Assembly (NCBI RefSeq): GCF_030295425.1
Contig: NZ_AP027081.1
Coordinates: 2,358,965 to 2,422,964 of the forward strand
DNA length: 64,000 nt
Source of the DNA: Mesoterricola sediminis
Lineage (GTDB): Bacteria > Acidobacteriota > Holophagae > Holophagales > Holophagaceae
Direction of reading: 5' to 3'
Under the pieces are notes generated by a model. It was not told where the DNA came from, made no database searches, and saw only the letters and a program-made list of their open reading frames with translations. Both the position numbers and the translations under genes were made by a program. Shown here one piece after another: positions 1-11,055 of this stretch. The first letter of the stretch is position 1; every line of letters begins with the position of its first letter.

Positions 1-491
1 CGGCCCTCACCGGGGGCTGGGCCAGCTTCGCCTCCATCCTCCTGCGCTTCGCCCTCACCGTGAGCGCCGCGGTGGCCCTCGCGGCCACCACGGGCGTGGA
101 CGGGGTCACCCGGGCCCTGGAGCGCCTGGGGGCCCCCGCCGCCTTCACGCGCCAGCTGGCCTTCCTCCACCGCTACGCCTTCGTCCTGGGCGAGGAGGCC
201 TTCCGCCTGAACCGGGCCCGCGCCCTGCGCGCCTTCGGGCGCCGCACCTCGCCGGCGGAGTTCGCCTCCCTCGCGGGCCACGCCCTCCTGCGCGCCTGGG
301 ACCGGGCCCGCCGCGTGCACGTGGCCATGCTGAGCCGGGGCTTCACGGGGCGCTTCCCGGACCGGCGCCCCCTGGCGTGGCGCCCCGCCGACACCGCCTT
401 CCTCGCGGCCTGGGCCGCCTTCTTCGCCTGCGCCCGGGTCTGGGACCTGGCCTCGGCCGCCGGCGCCCTGATCCTGGGAGGCCGGCCGTGA
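1..491 (+). CDS. cbiQ: Cobalt/nickel ECF transporter transmembrane subunit CbiQ/EcfT (5' truncated by window edge)
   Basis: The reading frame is open from base 3 to the stop at 489-491, so about 162 C-terminal residues are visible. CbiQ/EcfT is the inner-membrane scaffold that couples a substrate-binding component to the ATPase in energy-coupling factor metal importers. Two hydrophobic segments are visible, one at the start of the fragment and one near the C-terminus (FLAAWAAFFACARVWDLA). Between them lies the cytoplasmic coupling region with an Ala/Arg-Gly motif (AMLSRGF) that contacts the ATPase in this family. The stop overlaps the GTG start of the ATPase gene, so the two are translationally coupled. 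Cobalt or nickel specificity is inferred from the pairing; the S-component genes would lie upstream of the window. Confidence 0.85.
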   Translation, partial: ALTGGWASFASILLRFALTVSAAVALAATTGVDGVTRALERLGAPAAFTRQLAFLHRYAFVLGEEAFRLNRARALRAFGRRTSPAEFASLAGHALLRAWDRARRVHVAMLSRGFTGRFPDRRPLAWRPADTAFLAAWAAFFACARVWDLASAAGALILGGRP

Positions 492-3507: not shown

Positions 3508-4031
3508 TCAATCCACGGGCCCGGCGAGCGCCTCGATCACGTGCTGGGCGAAGCGGGACACCTCCATGGTCGCCAGGAACGTCGCCGCCAGATCCGCGGG
3601 CCGGGGCTCCACCGCGGCGGTCGCCTCCAGCCGGTCCAGCAGCACCGTCTCCAGGTCGTCCAGGGCGCGGAGGCCGGCGTGGGGCCGCATCCAGTCCTCG
3701 CCGCCCTCGCGCCAGGCCTCGATGAGGGGCATGAGCTCGAAGGCGTCGTAGTGCTCCTCGGCCAGCGCCCCCAGGACGTCCTCCGAGGCCCTGGGGGCCC
3801 GGGCGTGGAAGGTCCGGGTGCGGGTGTAGGCGTGGCCCTTCCCGTCGGAGACCGTGAACGTCACCCACGCGTCCCGCCCGGAGCCCCCCAGCGCGAAGAC
3901 CAGCCGCAGCCCGCCCAGGCGGAGGTCATAGCCCGAGGGCCGGACCTCGATCCGGTACCCGAGGCGGGATTCCGCCGACCAGGTGACGGCCCGCTCCACG
4001 GGCGTCTTCTCCTCCAGGACCGGCGCCGCGG
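3508..4031. repeat. Direct repeat copy 2: shared 3' end of the two tandem paralogues
   Basis: Partner of the repeat at 1381-1904, in the same orientation. Differences are isolated substitutions, including the bases just after the stop codon complement and a few codons of the C-terminal module. Confidence 0.9.
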
Positions 4032-5583
4032 GCGCGGGGAGGACGGGCTCCGCCGACGCCACGGGCGAGGGAAGGACGGGGCGGTCCGACCCCTGGCCGG
4101 TGTCCACCTGCACGGGCGTGGGGGCGGCCTGGGGCGCCTCCACACTGAGGAGGCGGCCCAGGTCGGCCCAGGCCCGGCCGGCGGCCAGGACCCAGGCCGG
4201 CTTGGGGCTCTGGCGCATCCCCGTGTACAGCCGCGCTTCCACCTGGGCCCGGAGGTCCTTCAGGTCCTCGGCCGGCAGCGCCGCGGCGCAGGCTCGCCCC
4301 GAGGGGTGTTCCAGGACCTGCTTCCAGAAGGCGGCCTCGTCTTCGTCCCCCCGCATCCCGAAGGTCCAGCGCCCGCCCTCGGAGGCCAACGCCAGGCGGC
4401 CCGCGACCAGCCGGTTCACCTCCTGGAAGCCCAGGGGATCGAGGAGCGAATACCCCGCCTGGTCAAGACCGAGGCTCAGGCGCCCGGCCTTGAAGGTCTG
4501 GAAGCGGGCCGGCAGCCCGCGCGCGGGCGTGTCCGGCGCTATGCGCTCCCCGCCGCTGGCCTCCGGAGGCTCGGCCGCCGCCAGGGCAGCCGGCGCGGAG
4601 GCCGGAACGCGTTCGGCCAGGGCGTCCAGGTTGGCCAGGAGGGCCTTCAACAGGGGCTCCCTGAGGAGGGGGGACCGGGGACCGTCCGCCAGGCATTGGG
4701 CCACGAGGGTCCGCGCCGCCGCCAGATCCTCGGCGGCGAAGGCGGCGCCAGCGCAGGCCTCCAGGAATTCCGGATAGGTCTGGACGGGATCCAGGGCCCA
4801 GGGGCCCAGCCATTCGAACTGGCCCGAGGGCCCCTGCCCCGCCTGGAACCCGACCTGGGTCCGGATCGCCTGGCCCTCCCGGGTCTTCTGCAGCACCAGG
4901 TCCCCCGTCCCGAAGGCGCAATCCGCCCGGGCCGCCGACACCCCCGTCGCGTCCATGGCCAGGCGGAGGCAGACCGCCCCCCGGCGGTAGACCTCCACCT
5001 GGAGAACGGGCACGCTGGCGTCCCACGCCCGCGGGTCCCCCTGGGCCTTCTCCGGGGCCTTCCCCCGGGCGCCCTGGGCCATCCAGGCCAGATCCGCCAC
5101 CGCCTGGGCGGTCCACGGCGCCCAGAAGGGCCGCTGGCCCTTCCGGGTGCAATCGGCCCCCACCGCCTCCAGCCGGGCCTTCAGGGCCAGCAGGTCCTCC
5201 GCCACCAGCCGGTCCCCGAACCCGCCCCAGGCCGGATGGGCCAGGACCGCCTTCCAGGTGGCGGCCTCGTCCTTCCCGGTCGGCCGCAGGGACGTCGCGC
5301 GCCCGGCGGCGTCGAGGAGGACCAGGGGGCCCGCGCCCTCCCGCTGCGCCTGGACCTTGGCCCCCGCGTGGAAGAGGCCGTAGCGCGCCTCCTCCAGCAC
5401 CAGGAGGAGGTCGCCGCTCCGGACGGTCAAATGGCTGCCGAAGCGGAACCGCTGGGCCGGCGTCTCCCGCTCCCCCTCGTCCTTCCGCTCCGCCTCCGGG
5501 GGATCCGGGCGGGACAGGACCGCGGGCTGGGCCGCCAGGGGGAGGGCGACGGCCAGGAGGACGGATAGGGGATGGGGGACCAT
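3508..5583 (-). CDS. Secreted repeat protein of unknown function, copy B
   Basis: A 691-residue tandem paralogue of the protein encoded at 1381-3381, with the same modular plan. It begins MVPHPLSVLLAVALPLAAQ, a good Sec signal peptide. This ATG is chosen because GGAGG lies just upstream; an in-frame start 20 codons earlier would bury the signal peptide. Modules again contain the AAFWKQVLE-type helix and the AGRAWADLG-type helix twice, with a Pro-rich linker before the shared C-terminal module. The two genes are 126 bases apart on the same strand and probably co-transcribed, this one first. No enzymatic motif is recognised; a periplasmic or surface role is only an inference from the signal peptide. 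Confidence 0.7.
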   Translation of the reverse strand: MVPHPLSVLLAVALPLAAQPAVLSRPDPPEAERKDEGERETPAQRFRFGSHLTVRSGDLLLVLEEARYGLFHAGAKVQAQREGAGPLVLLDAAGRATSLRPTGKDEAATWKAVLAHPAWGGFGDRLVAEDLLALKARLEAVGADCTRKGQRPFWAPWTAQAVADLAWMAQGARGKAPEKAQGDPRAWDASVPVLQVEVYRRGAVCLRLAMDATGVSAARADCAFGTGDLVLQKTREGQAIRTQVGFQAGQGPSGQFEWLGPWALDPVQTYPEFLEACAGAAFAAEDLAAARTLVAQCLADGPRSPLLREPLLKALLANLDALAERVPASAPAALAAAEPPEASGGERIAPDTPARGLPARFQTFKAGRLSLGLDQAGYSLLDPLGFQEVNRLVAGRLALASEGGRWTFGMRGDEDEAAFWKQVLEHPSGRACAAALPAEDLKDLRAQVEARLYTGMRQSPKPAWVLAAGRAWADLGRLLSVEAPQAAPTPVQVDTGQGSDRPVLPSPVASAEPVLPAPAAPVLEEKTPVERAVTWSAESRLGYRIEVRPSGYDLRLGGLRLVFALGGSGRDAWVTFTVSDGKGHAYTRTRTFHARAPRASEDVLGALAEEHYDAFELMPLIEAWREGGEDWMRPHAGLRALDDLETVLLDRLEATAAVEPRPADLAATFLATMEVSRFAQHVIEALAGPVD

Positions 5584-5806
5584 GGCGCCTCCAGGCGTCC
5601 CCGGAAGCTCCGGGGGCGCACGGGGGATGAATGTTAAATCCATCCGTCAGGTTCCCGGATCCGCGCAGACCTTGGGTTCGCGCGGGCCTTGGGCCATGGC
5701 GCCCGGGCCCCGACGCGTTCAGCCCCGGCGTCCGCGCCCGGGTGAAGGCATAATGGCAGGCACCCCCCGGCTGGTTCGGGGGGTCCACCCTGCTGGAGCA
5801 CTGCTC
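5584..5806. promoter_or_regulatory. Divergent intergenic region with a 5'-leader hairpin
   Basis: This region separates two divergent transcription units. A CATAAT hexamer at about 5748-5753 could be a -10 element for the rightward gene, but no convincing -35 is seen. A short C7/G7-type hairpin (ACCCCCC at 5762-5768 pairing with GGGGGGT at 5778-5784) lies in the presumed leader, about 20 bases before the GGAG of the start. Nothing else is recognised here. Confidence 0.35.
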
Positions 5807-7912
5807 ATGACGACCCTCAACCAGCGCCTGCTCGAGGCCCCCTACCCCGTCGTGGGGCTCACCGGAGGCATCGCCGCGGGCAAGACTTATGCGTCCCAGC
5901 GCCTGCGCTACCTGGGCTGGGAGGTGATCAACGCCGACCAGGTCGCCCGGGAAGTCGTCCAGCCGGGCACCCCCGGCCTGGAGGCCCTGGTCGCCGCCTT
6001 CGGCGACGGCATCCTCGCCGACACCGGCACCCTGGACCGGGAGAAACTCGGCGACCTGATCTTCAAGGACCCGGCCAAGCGGGAGCGCCTCGAGGCCATC
6101 CTGCACCCCCTCATCGAACAGCGTTTGTCTGAACGCCTGGCGGCCCTCCCCCCCACCATCAAGGGGGCCGTCCTGGACGCCGCCCTCTGGGTGGAGCGGG
6201 GCCAGGCCCACATCTTCGACGCCCTGTGGGTGGTCGACGCCCCCGACGACATCCGGCTCAAGCGCCTGATGGAGCGGGACGGCCTGGACACGGCCCGGGC
6301 CATGGACCGCATCTACGCCCAGAGCGCCGGCGCCGAGAAGCGCCTCCACGCCGACCAGGTCTTCCGCAACGACGGCCGGGACCTGGACGAGAGCCTCACC
6401 AAGGCCGAGGGCGCCCTCCTCGCCCACTGGAAGACGGCCCGCGAGCGCAAGTGGGGCCGCACCGGCACCTCCCCCTTCAGCCCCGAGGAGCTCCACGCCG
6501 TCCTCGCGGCCATGCTGGGCCGCGGCGGCGACTACGCCGAGATCTTCGTGGAGCAGCGGCGGGCCTGCGCCCTGGGCATGGACGACGGCCGCATGGAGGA
6601 CGTGGCCGCCGGCGAGACCTTCGGGGTGGGCCTCCGCCTCATCGACGGCGAGGCCACGCGGTTCGCCGACCTCATCGCCCCCAGCGCCGAGGAGCTGCTG
6701 GAGGCGGCCCGGACCCTGGCGGCCCCCGGAACCGGGGCCCCCGTCGACGTGCCCGGCCTGGAGCGCCACCTCCTGCCCAAGCCCAGCGCCATCGAGCGGG
6801 AACCCACCGCCGTGCCCCTCCCCGAGAAGGTGGACCTGGTCCGGCGCGCCGACTACCTCGCCCGCCGCCGCGCCGAGGCCATCCGCCCCGGCGCCCTGCG
6901 CCAGGTGGCCGTGGGCTACGGCGACAGCACCCAGAACGTCTGGATCGCCGCCAGCGAGCGCGGCGCCTCCGGCTGGACCTCCACCCTGACCCAGGACCGC
7001 CGCATCCAGAGCGTCCTGCGCATCAACGTCACCGCCGGGGAGGGGGACCTCCTCCAGAGCGGCTACCAGGCCCTGGGCCAGACCCGGGGCTTCGAGCTCT
7101 TCCAGTCCCAGGCCGTCGAGGCCACGGTGTACGAGGCGGTGCGCCTGGCCATGCAGGCCCTGGACGCCAAGCCGGCCCCCGCCGGCACCTTCCCCGTCAT
7201 CCTCTCCAGCAGCGCCGGCGGCACCATGATCCACGAGGCCTGCGGGCACGGGCTCGAGGCCGACCTCGCCCTGGCTGGCGTCAGCGCCTTCTCGGGCAAG
7301 CTGGGCCAGAAGGTGGCCGCCGAAGGCGTGACCATCATCGACGACGGCACCCTGCCCAACAAGCGGGGCTCCAGCGCCATGGACGACGAGGGCCGCGCCG
7401 CCCAGCGCGTCGTGCTCATCGAGAACGGCGTCCTCAAGGCCTACCTCCAGTCCCGCAAGACCGCCCGGCGCATGGGCGTCGAGCCCACCGGCAACGGCCG
7501 GCGCGAGAGCTACCGCCACATCCCCATCCCCCGCATGCGCAACACCTTCCTCGCCCCGGGCCAGGAGGATCCCAAGACCATCCTCGCGGACCTGGACCGG
7601 GGCCTCCTCGTCAAGCACATGGGCGGAGGCCAGGTGGACACGGTCACCGGCAACTTCGTCTTCCAGGTCACCGAGGGCTACTGGGTCGAGAACGGCGAAG
7701 TGAAGCACCCCGTGCGCAACGCGACCCTCACCGGGTGCGGGCCGGCCGTCCTCAAGGACCTGACCCGCATCGGCCGGGACCTCGACCACTTCGACATCGG
7801 CACCTGCGGCAAGGACGGCCAGGGCGTGCCCGTCTCCGACGCCCTCCCCACCATCCTCTGCCCCGCCCTCGTCGTGGGCGGCACGGCCGAACCCCTTCCG
7901 AGCGTGATCTAG
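5807..7912 (+). CDS. Fusion protein: dephospho-CoA kinase (CoaE) + TldD-type metalloprotease
   Basis: One uninterrupted 701-residue frame carries two normally separate proteins. Residues 1-215 are a dephospho-CoA kinase, the last step of CoA synthesis: P-loop GLTGGIAAGKT (17-27), the ADQVAR region, and the LID/CoA-binding part. Residues 220-701 are TldD, a zinc metalloprotease that works with TldE on modified peptides. The HExxxH site is HEACGH (476-481), and the C-terminal CGKDGQ segment supplies the Cys ligand known for TldD. The ATG at 5807 has GGAG at the right distance. An internal ATG at 6511 has no good ribosome binding site, so a true fusion is more likely than two genes. tldE follows 2 bases after the stop. 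Confidence 0.88.
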   Translation: MTTLNQRLLEAPYPVVGLTGGIAAGKTYASQRLRYLGWEVINADQVAREVVQPGTPGLEALVAAFGDGILADTGTLDREKLGDLIFKDPAKRERLEAILHPLIEQRLSERLAALPPTIKGAVLDAALWVERGQAHIFDALWVVDAPDDIRLKRLMERDGLDTARAMDRIYAQSAGAEKRLHADQVFRNDGRDLDESLTKAEGALLAHWKTARERKWGRTGTSPFSPEELHAVLAAMLGRGGDYAEIFVEQRRACALGMDDGRMEDVAAGETFGVGLRLIDGEATRFADLIAPSAEELLEAARTLAAPGTGAPVDVPGLERHLLPKPSAIEREPTAVPLPEKVDLVRRADYLARRRAEAIRPGALRQVAVGYGDSTQNVWIAASERGASGWTSTLTQDRRIQSVLRINVTAGEGDLLQSGYQALGQTRGFELFQSQAVEATVYEAVRLAMQALDAKPAPAGTFPVILSSSAGGTMIHEACGHGLEADLALAGVSAFSGKLGQKVAAEGVTIIDDGTLPNKRGSSAMDDEGRAAQRVVLIENGVLKAYLQSRKTARRMGVEPTGNGRRESYRHIPIPRMRNTFLAPGQEDPKTILADLDRGLLVKHMGGGQVDTVTGNFVFQVTEGYWVENGEVKHPVRNATLTGCGPAVLKDLTRIGRDLDHFDIGTCGKDGQGVPVSDALPTILCPALVVGGTAEPLPSVI

Positions 7913-7914
7913 CC

Positions 7915-9294
7915 ATGACCGATTCCGGGATCTTCCAGTCCTTCATCCCCGAGGCCCTCGAAGGCCGCCTCCAGGAGGGCATCCGCCACGCCCAGGCCCT
8001 GGGCGCCGAGGGCGCCGAGGCCTTCGTCTCCGTCTCCCGCAGCCGCCGGGCCAAGGTGCAGAACGGCGCCCTCGAGGACCTCACCACGAGCAAGCGCGGC
8101 GGCCTCGGCGTCCGCGTCCTGCGTGGGGGCGCCAAGGGCGTCCGCACCGGCATCGCGACCACCACCGACCTGACCCGGGCCGACTTCCGCGACCTCTTCG
8201 CCCAGGCCTGGGAGCTCAGCGCCCTCGGCGACGAGGACCCCTGGACCCGCCAGGCCGAGCCCGCCGGCGCCGACGACCTGCCCTCCCGGTACGACGGCCG
8301 GGGCCAGTTGCTGGCCCCCGAGGACCGCATCCGCCGGGCCCTGGACCTCGAGGCCGAAGCCCGCCGCGCCTCCCAGCGCGTCGTCGCCGTCCGCGAGGCC
8401 TCCTGGGCCGACGGCGAGGGCGCCTCCCTCCTCCTGACCCAGAAGGGCGTCCGCGCCTTCGACCTGGGCTCCTCCTGCTCCGGATCCATCGAACTGGCCG
8501 TGGAGGCCGACGGTGACCGCCAGGCCGCCTGGCACTGGGACATCGGCCGCCACCCCGGCGCCCTGGACCTGGCCGCCATCGGCCGCGAGGCCGCCCTCAA
8601 GGGCGAGCGCAAGCTCCGCCCCGCCCAGGTGGAGGCCGGACGCTACAGCGTGGTCCTCCATCCCGAGGTCACCGTGGACATCCTGGGCATCGTCGCCGGC
8701 ATGCTGAGCGCCGAGGCCGTCCTCAAGAAGCGGAGCCTCTTCGCCGACAAGCTCGGCGAGCGCATCGCCAGCCCCCTGCTCACCCTCGTGGATGACGGCC
8801 GCCTGCCGGATGGCCTGGGGTCCGAGCCCTGGGACGGCGAAGGCCTGCCCACCCGGCGCAACGTCCTCATCCAGGACGGCGTCCTGGGCACCTACCTGCA
8901 CACCCTGCGCACCGCCGCCGAAATGGGCGTCGCCCCCACCGCCACCGCGGGCCGGGGCACCGGCAGCAACCCGGGCGTCACCACGTTCAACCTCTTCCCC
9001 GAACGGGGCGCCACCCCGGTGGCCGAGCTCTACCGGAAGGCCGGCGACGGCATCCTCATCACCGAGCTCATGGGCCTCCACACCGTGGACCCCGTCTCCG
9101 GCGACCTGAGCGTCGGCGCCAGCGGCATCCGCATCCGCGGGGGCGAGCTGGCGGAGAGCGTGGACCGCATGACCTTCGCCGGCAACCTGAGGGACTTCCT
9201 CACCCGCATCGAGGCGTTGGGGGACGACCTGCACTGGTACGGCAGCAGCGCCGGCCTTTCCATGCTCCTGGCCGACATGAGCATCGGCGGCTGA
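7915..9294 (+). CDS. pmbA: TldE/PmbA-type metalloprotease partner
   Basis: A 459-residue TldE (PmbA) homologue that lacks the HExxxH site, as expected for the partner subunit of the TldD/TldE heterodimer. Known roles of this complex include maturation of ribosomally made peptides and CcdA degradation in enterobacteria; the substrate here is unknown. Family features seen are the N-terminal AEAFVSVSRSRRAKVQNGALED strand region, the central SSGS-type segment, GAGRGTGSN-like loop (AGRGTGSNPGVTTFN), and the C-terminal LITELMGLHTVDPVSGDLSVGASG block. It starts 2 bases after the CoaE-TldD stop, so the complex is made from one operon. No reading-frame damage is seen. Confidence 0.88.
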   Translation: MTDSGIFQSFIPEALEGRLQEGIRHAQALGAEGAEAFVSVSRSRRAKVQNGALEDLTTSKRGGLGVRVLRGGAKGVRTGIATTTDLTRADFRDLFAQAWELSALGDEDPWTRQAEPAGADDLPSRYDGRGQLLAPEDRIRRALDLEAEARRASQRVVAVREASWADGEGASLLLTQKGVRAFDLGSSCSGSIELAVEADGDRQAAWHWDIGRHPGALDLAAIGREAALKGERKLRPAQVEAGRYSVVLHPEVTVDILGIVAGMLSAEAVLKKRSLFADKLGERIASPLLTLVDDGRLPDGLGSEPWDGEGLPTRRNVLIQDGVLGTYLHTLRTAAEMGVAPTATAGRGTGSNPGVTTFNLFPERGATPVAELYRKAGDGILITELMGLHTVDPVSGDLSVGASGIRIRGGELAESVDRMTFAGNLRDFLTRIEALGDDLHWYGSSAGLSMLLADMSIGG

Positions 9295-9351
9295 AAACCC
9301 CCTCCGCCCCGCCGTGGTAGGGTGGAGCAAGACCCAATGAAGAGGATATCG

Positions 9352-11055
9352 ATGTCCCTTGAAGCAGCACGCACCTACCTCGCCTCCCCCCACCTCGAGC
9401 CCGAGCTCCGGGCCGAGCTGGAGCCCCTCGTCGCCGCCGCCGCCGCGGGCGACGCCGCCGCCGGGGTGGAGGTCAACGACCGGTTCTTCGAACCGCTGGC
9501 CTTCGGCACGGGCGGCCTGCGCGGCATCATGGCCGCGGGCCTCCGCCGCATGAACAAGCCCAACGTCCGCCGCACCACCCTGGCCCTGGCCCAGGTGGCC
9601 AAGGCCCGCGCCCCCCAGGCGAAGACCGCCCTCGTGGGCTTCGACACCCGGCTCCAGTCCGACGTCTTCGCGCGGGAAGCCGCCCGCGTCCTGGCCGCCC
9701 AGGGGTACCAGGTGTACCTGGGCACCCGCCCCCTGCCCACCCCCTTCCTCTGCTACGCCATGCGCAAGCTGGGGACGGCCTGCGGCATCATCCTGACGGC
9801 CTCGCACAACCCCAAGGAATACAACGGCTACAAGGCCTACGACGACAAGGGCGCGCAGGTCGTGGCCCCCTGGGACGCCGAGATCGAGGCCGCCATGGCC
9901 CAGTTCCCCCTCGTCCCCGAGCCCCCCGCGGCCGAGGGCGACGCCCGCATCCAGCCCATCCCCGCCGAGCTCGAGGAGGGCTACCTGGCCCTGGGCCTCT
10001 CCCTCATGACCCGCCCCGAGGGCTTCCGCCCCGCCAAGGTCCTCTACACCCCCTTCCACGGCACCGGCATCGCCTTCGTGCCCGAGCTCTTCAAGCGGGC
10101 CGGGATCCCCCTCGAGATCTGCGCCGCCCAGGCCGTCCAGGACGGCACCTTCCCCACCGCCCCCCGCCCCAACCCCGAGGAGATCGCCGCCTACAAGGCC
10201 CCCCTCGCCGACGCGGAACGCCTGGGCGCCGACGTGGTCCTGGCCAACGACCCCGACGCCGACCGCATCGGCCTCGTCGCCAAGCGCAACGGGACCTGGG
10301 AGCTCATGAGCGGCAACGACCTGGCCGCCCTGACCCTCGACTACCTCTGCACCCTCAAGCGCCTCAAGGGCACCATGGTCACCACCGTCGTGACCTCCGA
10401 CCTGCTGCCCGTCGTGGGCCGGCACCACGGCCTCGAGGTCATGTGGACCCTCACCGGCTTCAAGAACATCGCCATCTGCATGAACCTCATCGAGAAGCGG
10501 GGCGAGACCTACGCCTTCAGCGCCGAGGAGTCCTTCGGCATGCAGCTCAGCGACCAGATGCGCGACAAGGACGGCGTCCTGGCCTCCCTCGTCGTGGCCG
10601 AGATGGTCGGCTACTACAAGTCCAAGGGCATGGGCCCCTACGAGGCCGTGGAGGCCCTCAAGGCCCGCATCGGCGCCTACCACAACCGCCTCGTCAACCT
10701 CGAGGATCCCCGGCCCGGCGGCGCCGTGCGCTTCGCCGAGGCCATGGCCCGCATCCGCCAGGCCGGCCTGACCGCCTTCGCCGGCGAGCGCGTCGTGAGC
10801 TGGGAGGACTTCCAGACCGGCCTCTGGCACGGCGAGGGCCGCGAGGAGACCATCGTCGACAGCCCCGACCGCCGCGAAGTCGCCACGCCCATCGACCGCA
10901 GCAACGTCCTCAAGTTCCGCCTGGAGAGCGGCGCCTTCGCCGCCTTCCGCCCCAGCGGCACCGAACCCAAGCTGAAGGTCTACCTCCAGAGCCGGACCGA
11001 TGAGGCCCTCCTGGACCGCATGGAGACCGAGGCCCGGCAGCTCCTCGGACTCTGA
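9352..11055 (+). CDS. Phosphohexomutase (phosphoglucomutase/phosphomannomutase family)
   Basis: A 567-residue alpha-D-phosphohexomutase that interconverts 1- and 6-phosphosugars. All four family blocks are present: the phosphoserine loop TASHNP (149-154, Ser151), the metal-binding DPDADR (about 300), the sugar-binding loop SAEESFG (about 390), and the phosphate-binding RPSGTEPKLKVYL near the C-terminus. The start chosen is the ATG at 9352, preceded by GAGG; ATG 9337 (preceded by GGAG) is possible and would add five residues. Length and the early FGTGGLRG block fit the long PgcA-type phosphoglucomutases. A strong hairpin follows the stop. Confidence 0.9.
   Translation: MSLEAARTYLASPHLEPELRAELEPLVAAAAAGDAAAGVEVNDRFFEPLAFGTGGLRGIMAAGLRRMNKPNVRRTTLALAQVAKARAPQAKTALVGFDTRLQSDVFAREAARVLAAQGYQVYLGTRPLPTPFLCYAMRKLGTACGIILTASHNPKEYNGYKAYDDKGAQVVAPWDAEIEAAMAQFPLVPEPPAAEGDARIQPIPAELEEGYLALGLSLMTRPEGFRPAKVLYTPFHGTGIAFVPELFKRAGIPLEICAAQAVQDGTFPTAPRPNPEEIAAYKAPLADAERLGADVVLANDPDADRIGLVAKRNGTWELMSGNDLAALTLDYLCTLKRLKGTMVTTVVTSDLLPVVGRHHGLEVMWTLTGFKNIAICMNLIEKRGETYAFSAEESFGMQLSDQMRDKDGVLASLVVAEMVGYYKSKGMGPYEAVEALKARIGAYHNRLVNLEDPRPGGAVRFAEAMARIRQAGLTAFAGERVVSWEDFQTGLWHGEGREETIVDSPDRREVATPIDRSNVLKFRLESGAFAAFRPSGTEPKLKVYLQSRTDEALLDRMETEARQLLGL

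Follow-up and report, generated by a model that had tools for sequence, protein, structure and literature searches.

A CoaE-TldD gene fusion in the Holophagaceae and the probable fate of its internal TldD start

CoaE forms CoA from dephospho-CoA and ATP. A CoaE-type kinase is part of a bifunctional chain in animals, the CoA synthase PPAT-DPCK, whose two domains catalyze consecutive steps of a single pathway; unlike for the partner in PPAT-DPCK, we know of no role in CoA metabolism for the TldD half of the protein described here. The animal enzyme is represented by a mouse structure (2f6r). In actinobacteria an N-terminal CoaE is joined to a C-terminal UPF0157 (GrpB-like) domain (NCBIfam PRK03333), and in Mycobacterium tuberculosis the C-terminal partner domain aids the folding of CoaE (PMC2765170). 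Escherichia coli TldD stands alone, without a CoaE domain, and forms a heterodimer with TldE (PmbA) (5nj5, PMC5810440). In-frame internal starts that yield a C-terminal product have been described for Shigella Spa33 (PMC6925163) and for two-polypeptide phage endolysins (PMC9430671).

The gene described here lies in a 64,000-nucleotide stretch of the Mesoterricola sediminis genome (the window). It shares with the actinobacterial protein an N-terminal CoaE and a second, C-terminal domain, but that second domain is TldD, which belongs to a protease and has its own partner subunit, TldE. With E. coli TldD it shares the fold, the HExxxH motif and a cysteine, and an adjoining tldE. Most of its relatives resemble Spa33 and the endolysins in carrying a candidate in-frame internal start; here, however, the inner start would be the relic of a separate cistron and is absent from the clade of the window. 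No paper joining CoaE, TldD and the fusion was found in the open-licence literature, and CoaE-TldD appears to be a previously undescribed domain architecture, built from known parts. The whole of the evidence is, in our judgment, likely to be best explained by an operon that became a fusion whose inner start was kept in most lineages and lost in the window clade. The fusion, its distribution, the adjacency of coaE and tldD in relatives, the conserved internal start and its loss in the window are read directly from the genomes.

The fused gene and its two halves

The fusion reads as an uninterrupted frame of 701 codons with no internal stops (Table 1). Together with the Pfam matches given below, this upholds an earlier note on the same DNA, which had described a complete CoaE and a complete TldD in a single frame, with the P-loop (GLTGGIAAGKT) and HEACGH motifs where we also find them and with tldE beginning 2 bases after the stop. 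That note had named a stop or frameshift between the domains as the finding that would undo it; this is not borne out, and a sequencing or frameshift artefact is excluded because open full-length versions with 64 to 85% identity recur in dozens of independent genomes. The host genome is a single 4.52-Mb contig that is 100% complete, and the search for a separate coaE that had been proposed found none elsewhere in it, leaving the fusion as its sole CoaE. Two matches to PmbA/TldD domain 1 occur in the whole genome, namely, the fusion and tldE. A 711-amino-acid open reading frame with apparent repeats of similar segments (3508 to 5643, reverse strand) diverges from the fusion.

Table 1 Features of the fusion locus, in window positions
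Feature	Position	Strand	Remarks
GGAG, plausible Shine-Dalgarno sequence	5795..5798	+	8 nt 5' of the fusion ATG
coaE-tldD fusion gene	5807..7912	+	701 aa, one open frame
CoaE domain, residues 15-191	5849..6379	+	Pfam PF01121, E 1.8e-50
CoaE motifs: P-loop 17-27, catalytic-region Asp44, HP(L)I 100-103, ADxxxxNDG 182-190		+	Conservation in 58 homologues
C-terminal CoaE helix, model residues 194-216	6386..6454	+	Ends at Trp216 (6452-6454)
Putative decayed internal ribosome start	6455..6466	+	GGC CGC ACC GGC; ancestral TldD start at codon 220 (6464-6466)
TldD part, residues 220-701	6464..7909	+	Helix 226-236, then TldD fold
ATG codon 236, candidate internal start of the earlier note	6512..6514	+	Judged not a start
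HEACGH metal-binding motif, residues 476-481	7232..7249	+	Invariant in 58/58
Conserved Cys667	7805-7807	+	Invariant in 58/58
tldE (pmbA), 459 aa; encodes the other subunit of the TldD/E protease	7915..9294	+	Profile matches
Phosphoglucomutase/phosphomannomutase homologue	9322..11055	+	3' of tldE; homologue directly 3' of coaE in reduced relatives

The N-terminal half scores 171.5 bits against PF01121 (curated cut-off, 27) and 149.5 bits against TIGR00152 (cut-off, 65.55), and residues 10 to 212 of its model match CoaE 4i1v with a Z score of 25.0, the highest among solved CoaE structures. The GK of the P-loop is conserved in all 57 aligned rows that cover that stretch, and Asp44, the HP pair and the lid residues Arg168 and Gln172 are conserved in 58 of 58. 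The first aspartate of the DxD motif is replaced by Asn42 in the window and in three relatives, with the second, Asp44, being kept. By family membership this half should be a dephospho-CoA kinase.

The C-terminal half matches the three PmbA_TldD domains (family models PF01523, PF19290, and PF19289), domain 1 at residues 244 to 303, domain 2 at 332 to 452, and domain 3 at 460 to 692 (E 2.4e-72); each of these matches exceeds its curated cut-off. Model residues 217 to 694 match E. coli TldD (5nj5_C) with a Z score of 46.3 over 466 residues. The score against the NCBIfam equivalog PRK10735 is 320.9 bits, below the 513-bit cut-off, and the protein is therefore placed in the TldD family and fold but outside that strict equivalog model. 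With the partner subunit encoded in the same genome, fused TldD and TldE should act as a peptide-degrading metalloprotease heterodimer. Geothrix and certain other Holophagaceae have a gene of about 500 bp, encoding a macro-domain protein, between the fusion and tldE (L046, 6060 to 6700; L161, 5753 to 6313); the corresponding gap is about 530 bp in L162, of the same genus as the window species, and in its near relative L004, whereas tldE is immediately adjacent in the window.

The AlphaFold model of the fusion has a mean pLDDT of 90.7 and a pTM of 0.89. We infer that the chain carries two enzymes that work independently: CoaE at the N terminus and, at the C terminus, TldD, which would pair with TldE. 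N-terminally His-tagged E. coli TldD is active with TldE (PMC5810440), so an N-terminal domain on TldD should be tolerable. By analogy with the M. tuberculosis enzyme, it is possible that the TldD half benefits the fusion by aiding the folding of CoaE.

A fusion fixed in one family and its probable ancestral operon

A scan of 396 genomes of the phylum recovered the full-length fusion in 36 of 39 Holophagaceae genomes, membership of the family being judged from the names of the closest loci, and in none of the remaining genomes. A scan of named genomes added about 57 full-length fusion loci among the best 80 loci, including those of eight named Geothrix species. The fusion is thus fixed in the Holophagaceae, as foreseen by the suggestion that it might be a stable lineage marker. 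Two of the three exceptions, G174 and G316, are 1.2-Mb genomes that have a stand-alone coaE with a phosphoglucomutase gene directly 3' of it and that contain neither TldD nor TldE; either they lost tldD and tldE or they were never fused. Their CoaE is very divergent (26 to 28% identity; L144, 4837 to 7202, in G174 and L205 in G316), and they look like reduced, fast-evolving lineages. The third, G292, contains tldE but lacks both CoaE and TldD. As this metagenome-assembled genome is only 92% complete, an assembly gap is the most likely reason.

The two genes had been taken to be normally separate and unlinked. This fails in the Acidobacteriota, because in all 13 genomes with a closely related TldD, which represent eight other families of the phylum, tldD has coaE as its immediate upstream neighbor in the same orientation. 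The junctions in these unfused relatives consist of short gaps or, often, of overlaps of 1 to 4 nucleotides, several of them in the form of ATGA or TAATG, and the overlaps point to translational coupling. In two of the unfused families folD lies upstream of coaE. A second, more distant type of TldD has no adjacent coaE in any of 78 genomes when coordinates are compared, the nearest being about 20 kb away. In L163 and L164 (G220 and G268), from another family of the same class, a tldD of the distant type is followed by a coaE about 7 kb downstream in the same orientation, possibly by chance.

Phylogenetic analysis of TldD placed the fused sequences in one clade (100/100), inside a group (100/96) that contains all coaE-linked acidobacterial TldDs and four sequences from Atribacterota and Thermotogota. 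Clostridia and Thermotogota have TldD proteins that are about equally similar, but an origin by transfer from them is disfavored by this grouping of the fused TldD with the linked acidobacterial type; no coaE was found near the tldD genes of those organisms within the flanks examined. Given the four sequences in the larger group, it is possible that TldD alone underwent an ancient transfer. The CoaE tree is weakly resolved and is compatible with vertical descent and with transfer alike.

Since coaE directly precedes and often overlaps tldD in relatives, the fusion most likely arose within a coupled operon, and of the readings that the earlier note offered, an accidental join kept by cotranslation is the one that now seems most likely. 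A coupled coaE-tldD-tldE operon would have given rise to the fusion at the base of the Holophagaceae. The step itself may be preserved in the spacing of two genomes from one unfused outgroup family (L145 and L146). There the coaE stop is in frame with tldD, four codons (12 nt) before its ATG and eight codons after the residue aligned with Trp208 (Trp in L145, Leu in L146). The fused genes share this arrangement, with seven codons between residue 208 and either the stop or Trp216 (TGG) and three more before the ATG, so that Trp216 aligns with the coaE stop of the unfused relatives. The spacing suggests that the stop probably became a sense codon in place, most simply by a change of TGA to TGG, which would have joined the genes while leaving the tldD Shine-Dalgarno sequence and ATG standing. 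Two other members of the same outgroup family have an ATGA overlap at the junction instead; the junction is variable, and such overlaps would require another path, through an indel.

The probable internal TldD start and its loss in the window clade

In 52 of the 58 fused Holophagaceae genes, the position of the ancestral TldD start is occupied by an ATG that a Shine-Dalgarno sequence precedes at a constant distance, in the pattern (TGG)AGA NNN NNN ATG or an equivalent. The methionine itself occurs in 56 of the 58, amid a linker that has no indels in any of these sequences but is otherwise variable; it changed twice on the tree, compared with 17, 21, and 25 changes in neighboring columns. A Shine-Dalgarno energy of -6 or lower was found for 86% of the 56 internal ATGs and for 9% of 610 other ATG codons. 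Energy alone is weak evidence, because the Gly-rich motif at residue 610 yields an SD-like string of similar energy that is forced by the protein sequence, and the argument is therefore carried by codon choice and the conserved methionine. Three positions before the methionine (M-3) there are 45 arginine codons, of which 42 are AGA or AGG, against an expectation of 2.8; AGA alone makes up 37 of the 45, compared to 1.8% of arginine codons elsewhere in the same genes. Among 62 arginine-rich columns M-3 is the most AGA biased, and codon 209 is the only other such column that is comparably AGG rich. The Shine-Dalgarno sequence is kept despite replacement of the arginine by serine (AGT, AGC) or lysine (AAG GAC), in L045 also without the tryptophan; in L025 and L069 it is weak and the ATG is retained. 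The window genome carries the anti-Shine-Dalgarno sequence CCTCC, and relatives have an anti-Shine-Dalgarno sequence as well.

We hypothesize that both elements of the former tldD start, its Shine-Dalgarno sequence and its ATG, are under selection within the fused frame in most Holophagaceae. Internal initiation and a free TldD are then to be expected: ribosomes would also start at the inner ATG, one gene would give two products, and most members of the family probably produce free TldD as well as the fusion. It is improbable that TGGAGA...ATG instead acts within the frame as a pause site, an SD-like string at which ribosomes would slow down and give CoaE time to fold first, with the methionine kept by chance. 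In the model, the site does lie at the domain border, directly after the last CoaE helix, as such a pause would have it. However, a pause does not need an ATG, yet the methionine is kept in a linker whose neighboring columns changed 17 to 25 times, and the distance between the SD and the ATG is fixed and the same as at the ancestral tldD start. Even less credible is the idea that the methionine and the rare codon are an unused residue of common ancestry that has not yet decayed. The window clade has indeed lost the site and kept the gene, but proteins of the family have drifted apart to about 65 to 70% identity, flanking codons have changed repeatedly, and the AGA/AGG, AGT/AGC, and AAG variants all preserve the Shine-Dalgarno sequence.

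A second SD-like string (TGGAAG or TGGAGG) occupies codons 208 and 209 (window 6428 to 6433), 36 to 31 nt 5' of the internal ATG. The TGG of Trp208 is invariant and Arg209 is almost always AGG; no conserved start codon at usable spacing from this string was seen in the fused genes, and the string may reflect a simple Lys-Arg exchange.

The internal start that we favor for most of the family is lost in a clade composed of L005, L004, L084, and the window (support, 100/100), which lacks the Shine-Dalgarno sequence and is nested among lineages that have it. Codon 217 is CGC, CGG, or GGC in these genes, and at codon 220 L004 and L084 still have ATG, whereas L005 has GTG and the window has GGC. The window gene, with GGC at both positions, thus has neither part of the conserved pair by which the 52 genes named above are predicted to give two products. 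The Shine-Dalgarno sequence would have decayed first and the ATG afterwards, in this species, making the fusion obligate. With both elements lost, the fusion appears to be the sole TldD and CoaE product of the window species. The earlier note had named an independent TldD start at 6511, giving two proteins, as a further finding that would undo its reading. The idea of such a start is probably true of most relatives but was attached to the wrong codon (the ATG is at 6512; the ancestral start is codon 220, at 6464), and such a start has been lost in the window clade. The ATG at 6512 was rejected as a start because it is Leu in most relatives, lies within helix 226-236, the first of the TldD part, and lacks a suitably spaced Shine-Dalgarno sequence.

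Possible coupling of the two activities and significance of the fusion

It is unlikely that the fusion was selected for its function, with tethering of CoaE to TldD/E coupling CoA synthesis to peptide turnover, for example through local regulation or a dosage of CoaE linked to the protease. This reading would account for the linkage of coaE and tldD in eight families and its fixation as a fusion in a ninth, for the indel-free linker and for the high pTM of the two-domain model. However, untethered TldD is apparently still made by most relatives, the reduced genomes G174 and G316 retain coaE without tldD or tldE, folD 5' of coaE suggests an ordinary housekeeping operon, and a substrate shared by both enzymes is not known. 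The tie between CoA supply and peptide processing raised by the earlier note found no positive evidence in our analysis; the survival of coaE without its neighbors in the reduced genomes and the apparently retained means of making free TldD weigh against tethering being necessary. We also see little likelihood in a broader version, in which the TldD/E protease and CoA synthesis serve a common physiological purpose in the Acidobacteriota, being at first coexpressed along with free TldD and then hard-wired into an obligate bifunctional enzyme in the window clade, although this, if true, would help to find the housekeeping role of TldD/E.

The preferred account, in which a coupled operon was fused and its inner start was later lost in one clade, gives an essential enzyme an apparently new architecture that is fixed in a family that has cultured representatives, Geothrix among them. 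If the internal start is, as it seems, a relic of the former cistron, then the coupled operon, the fusion with an inner start, and the fusion without one would all still be visible. They would offer a natural and testable succession of stages by which fusions between bacterial genes reach fixation while the dosage of subunits stays undisturbed, and they advise caution, as an annotated fusion protein may conceal a second product.
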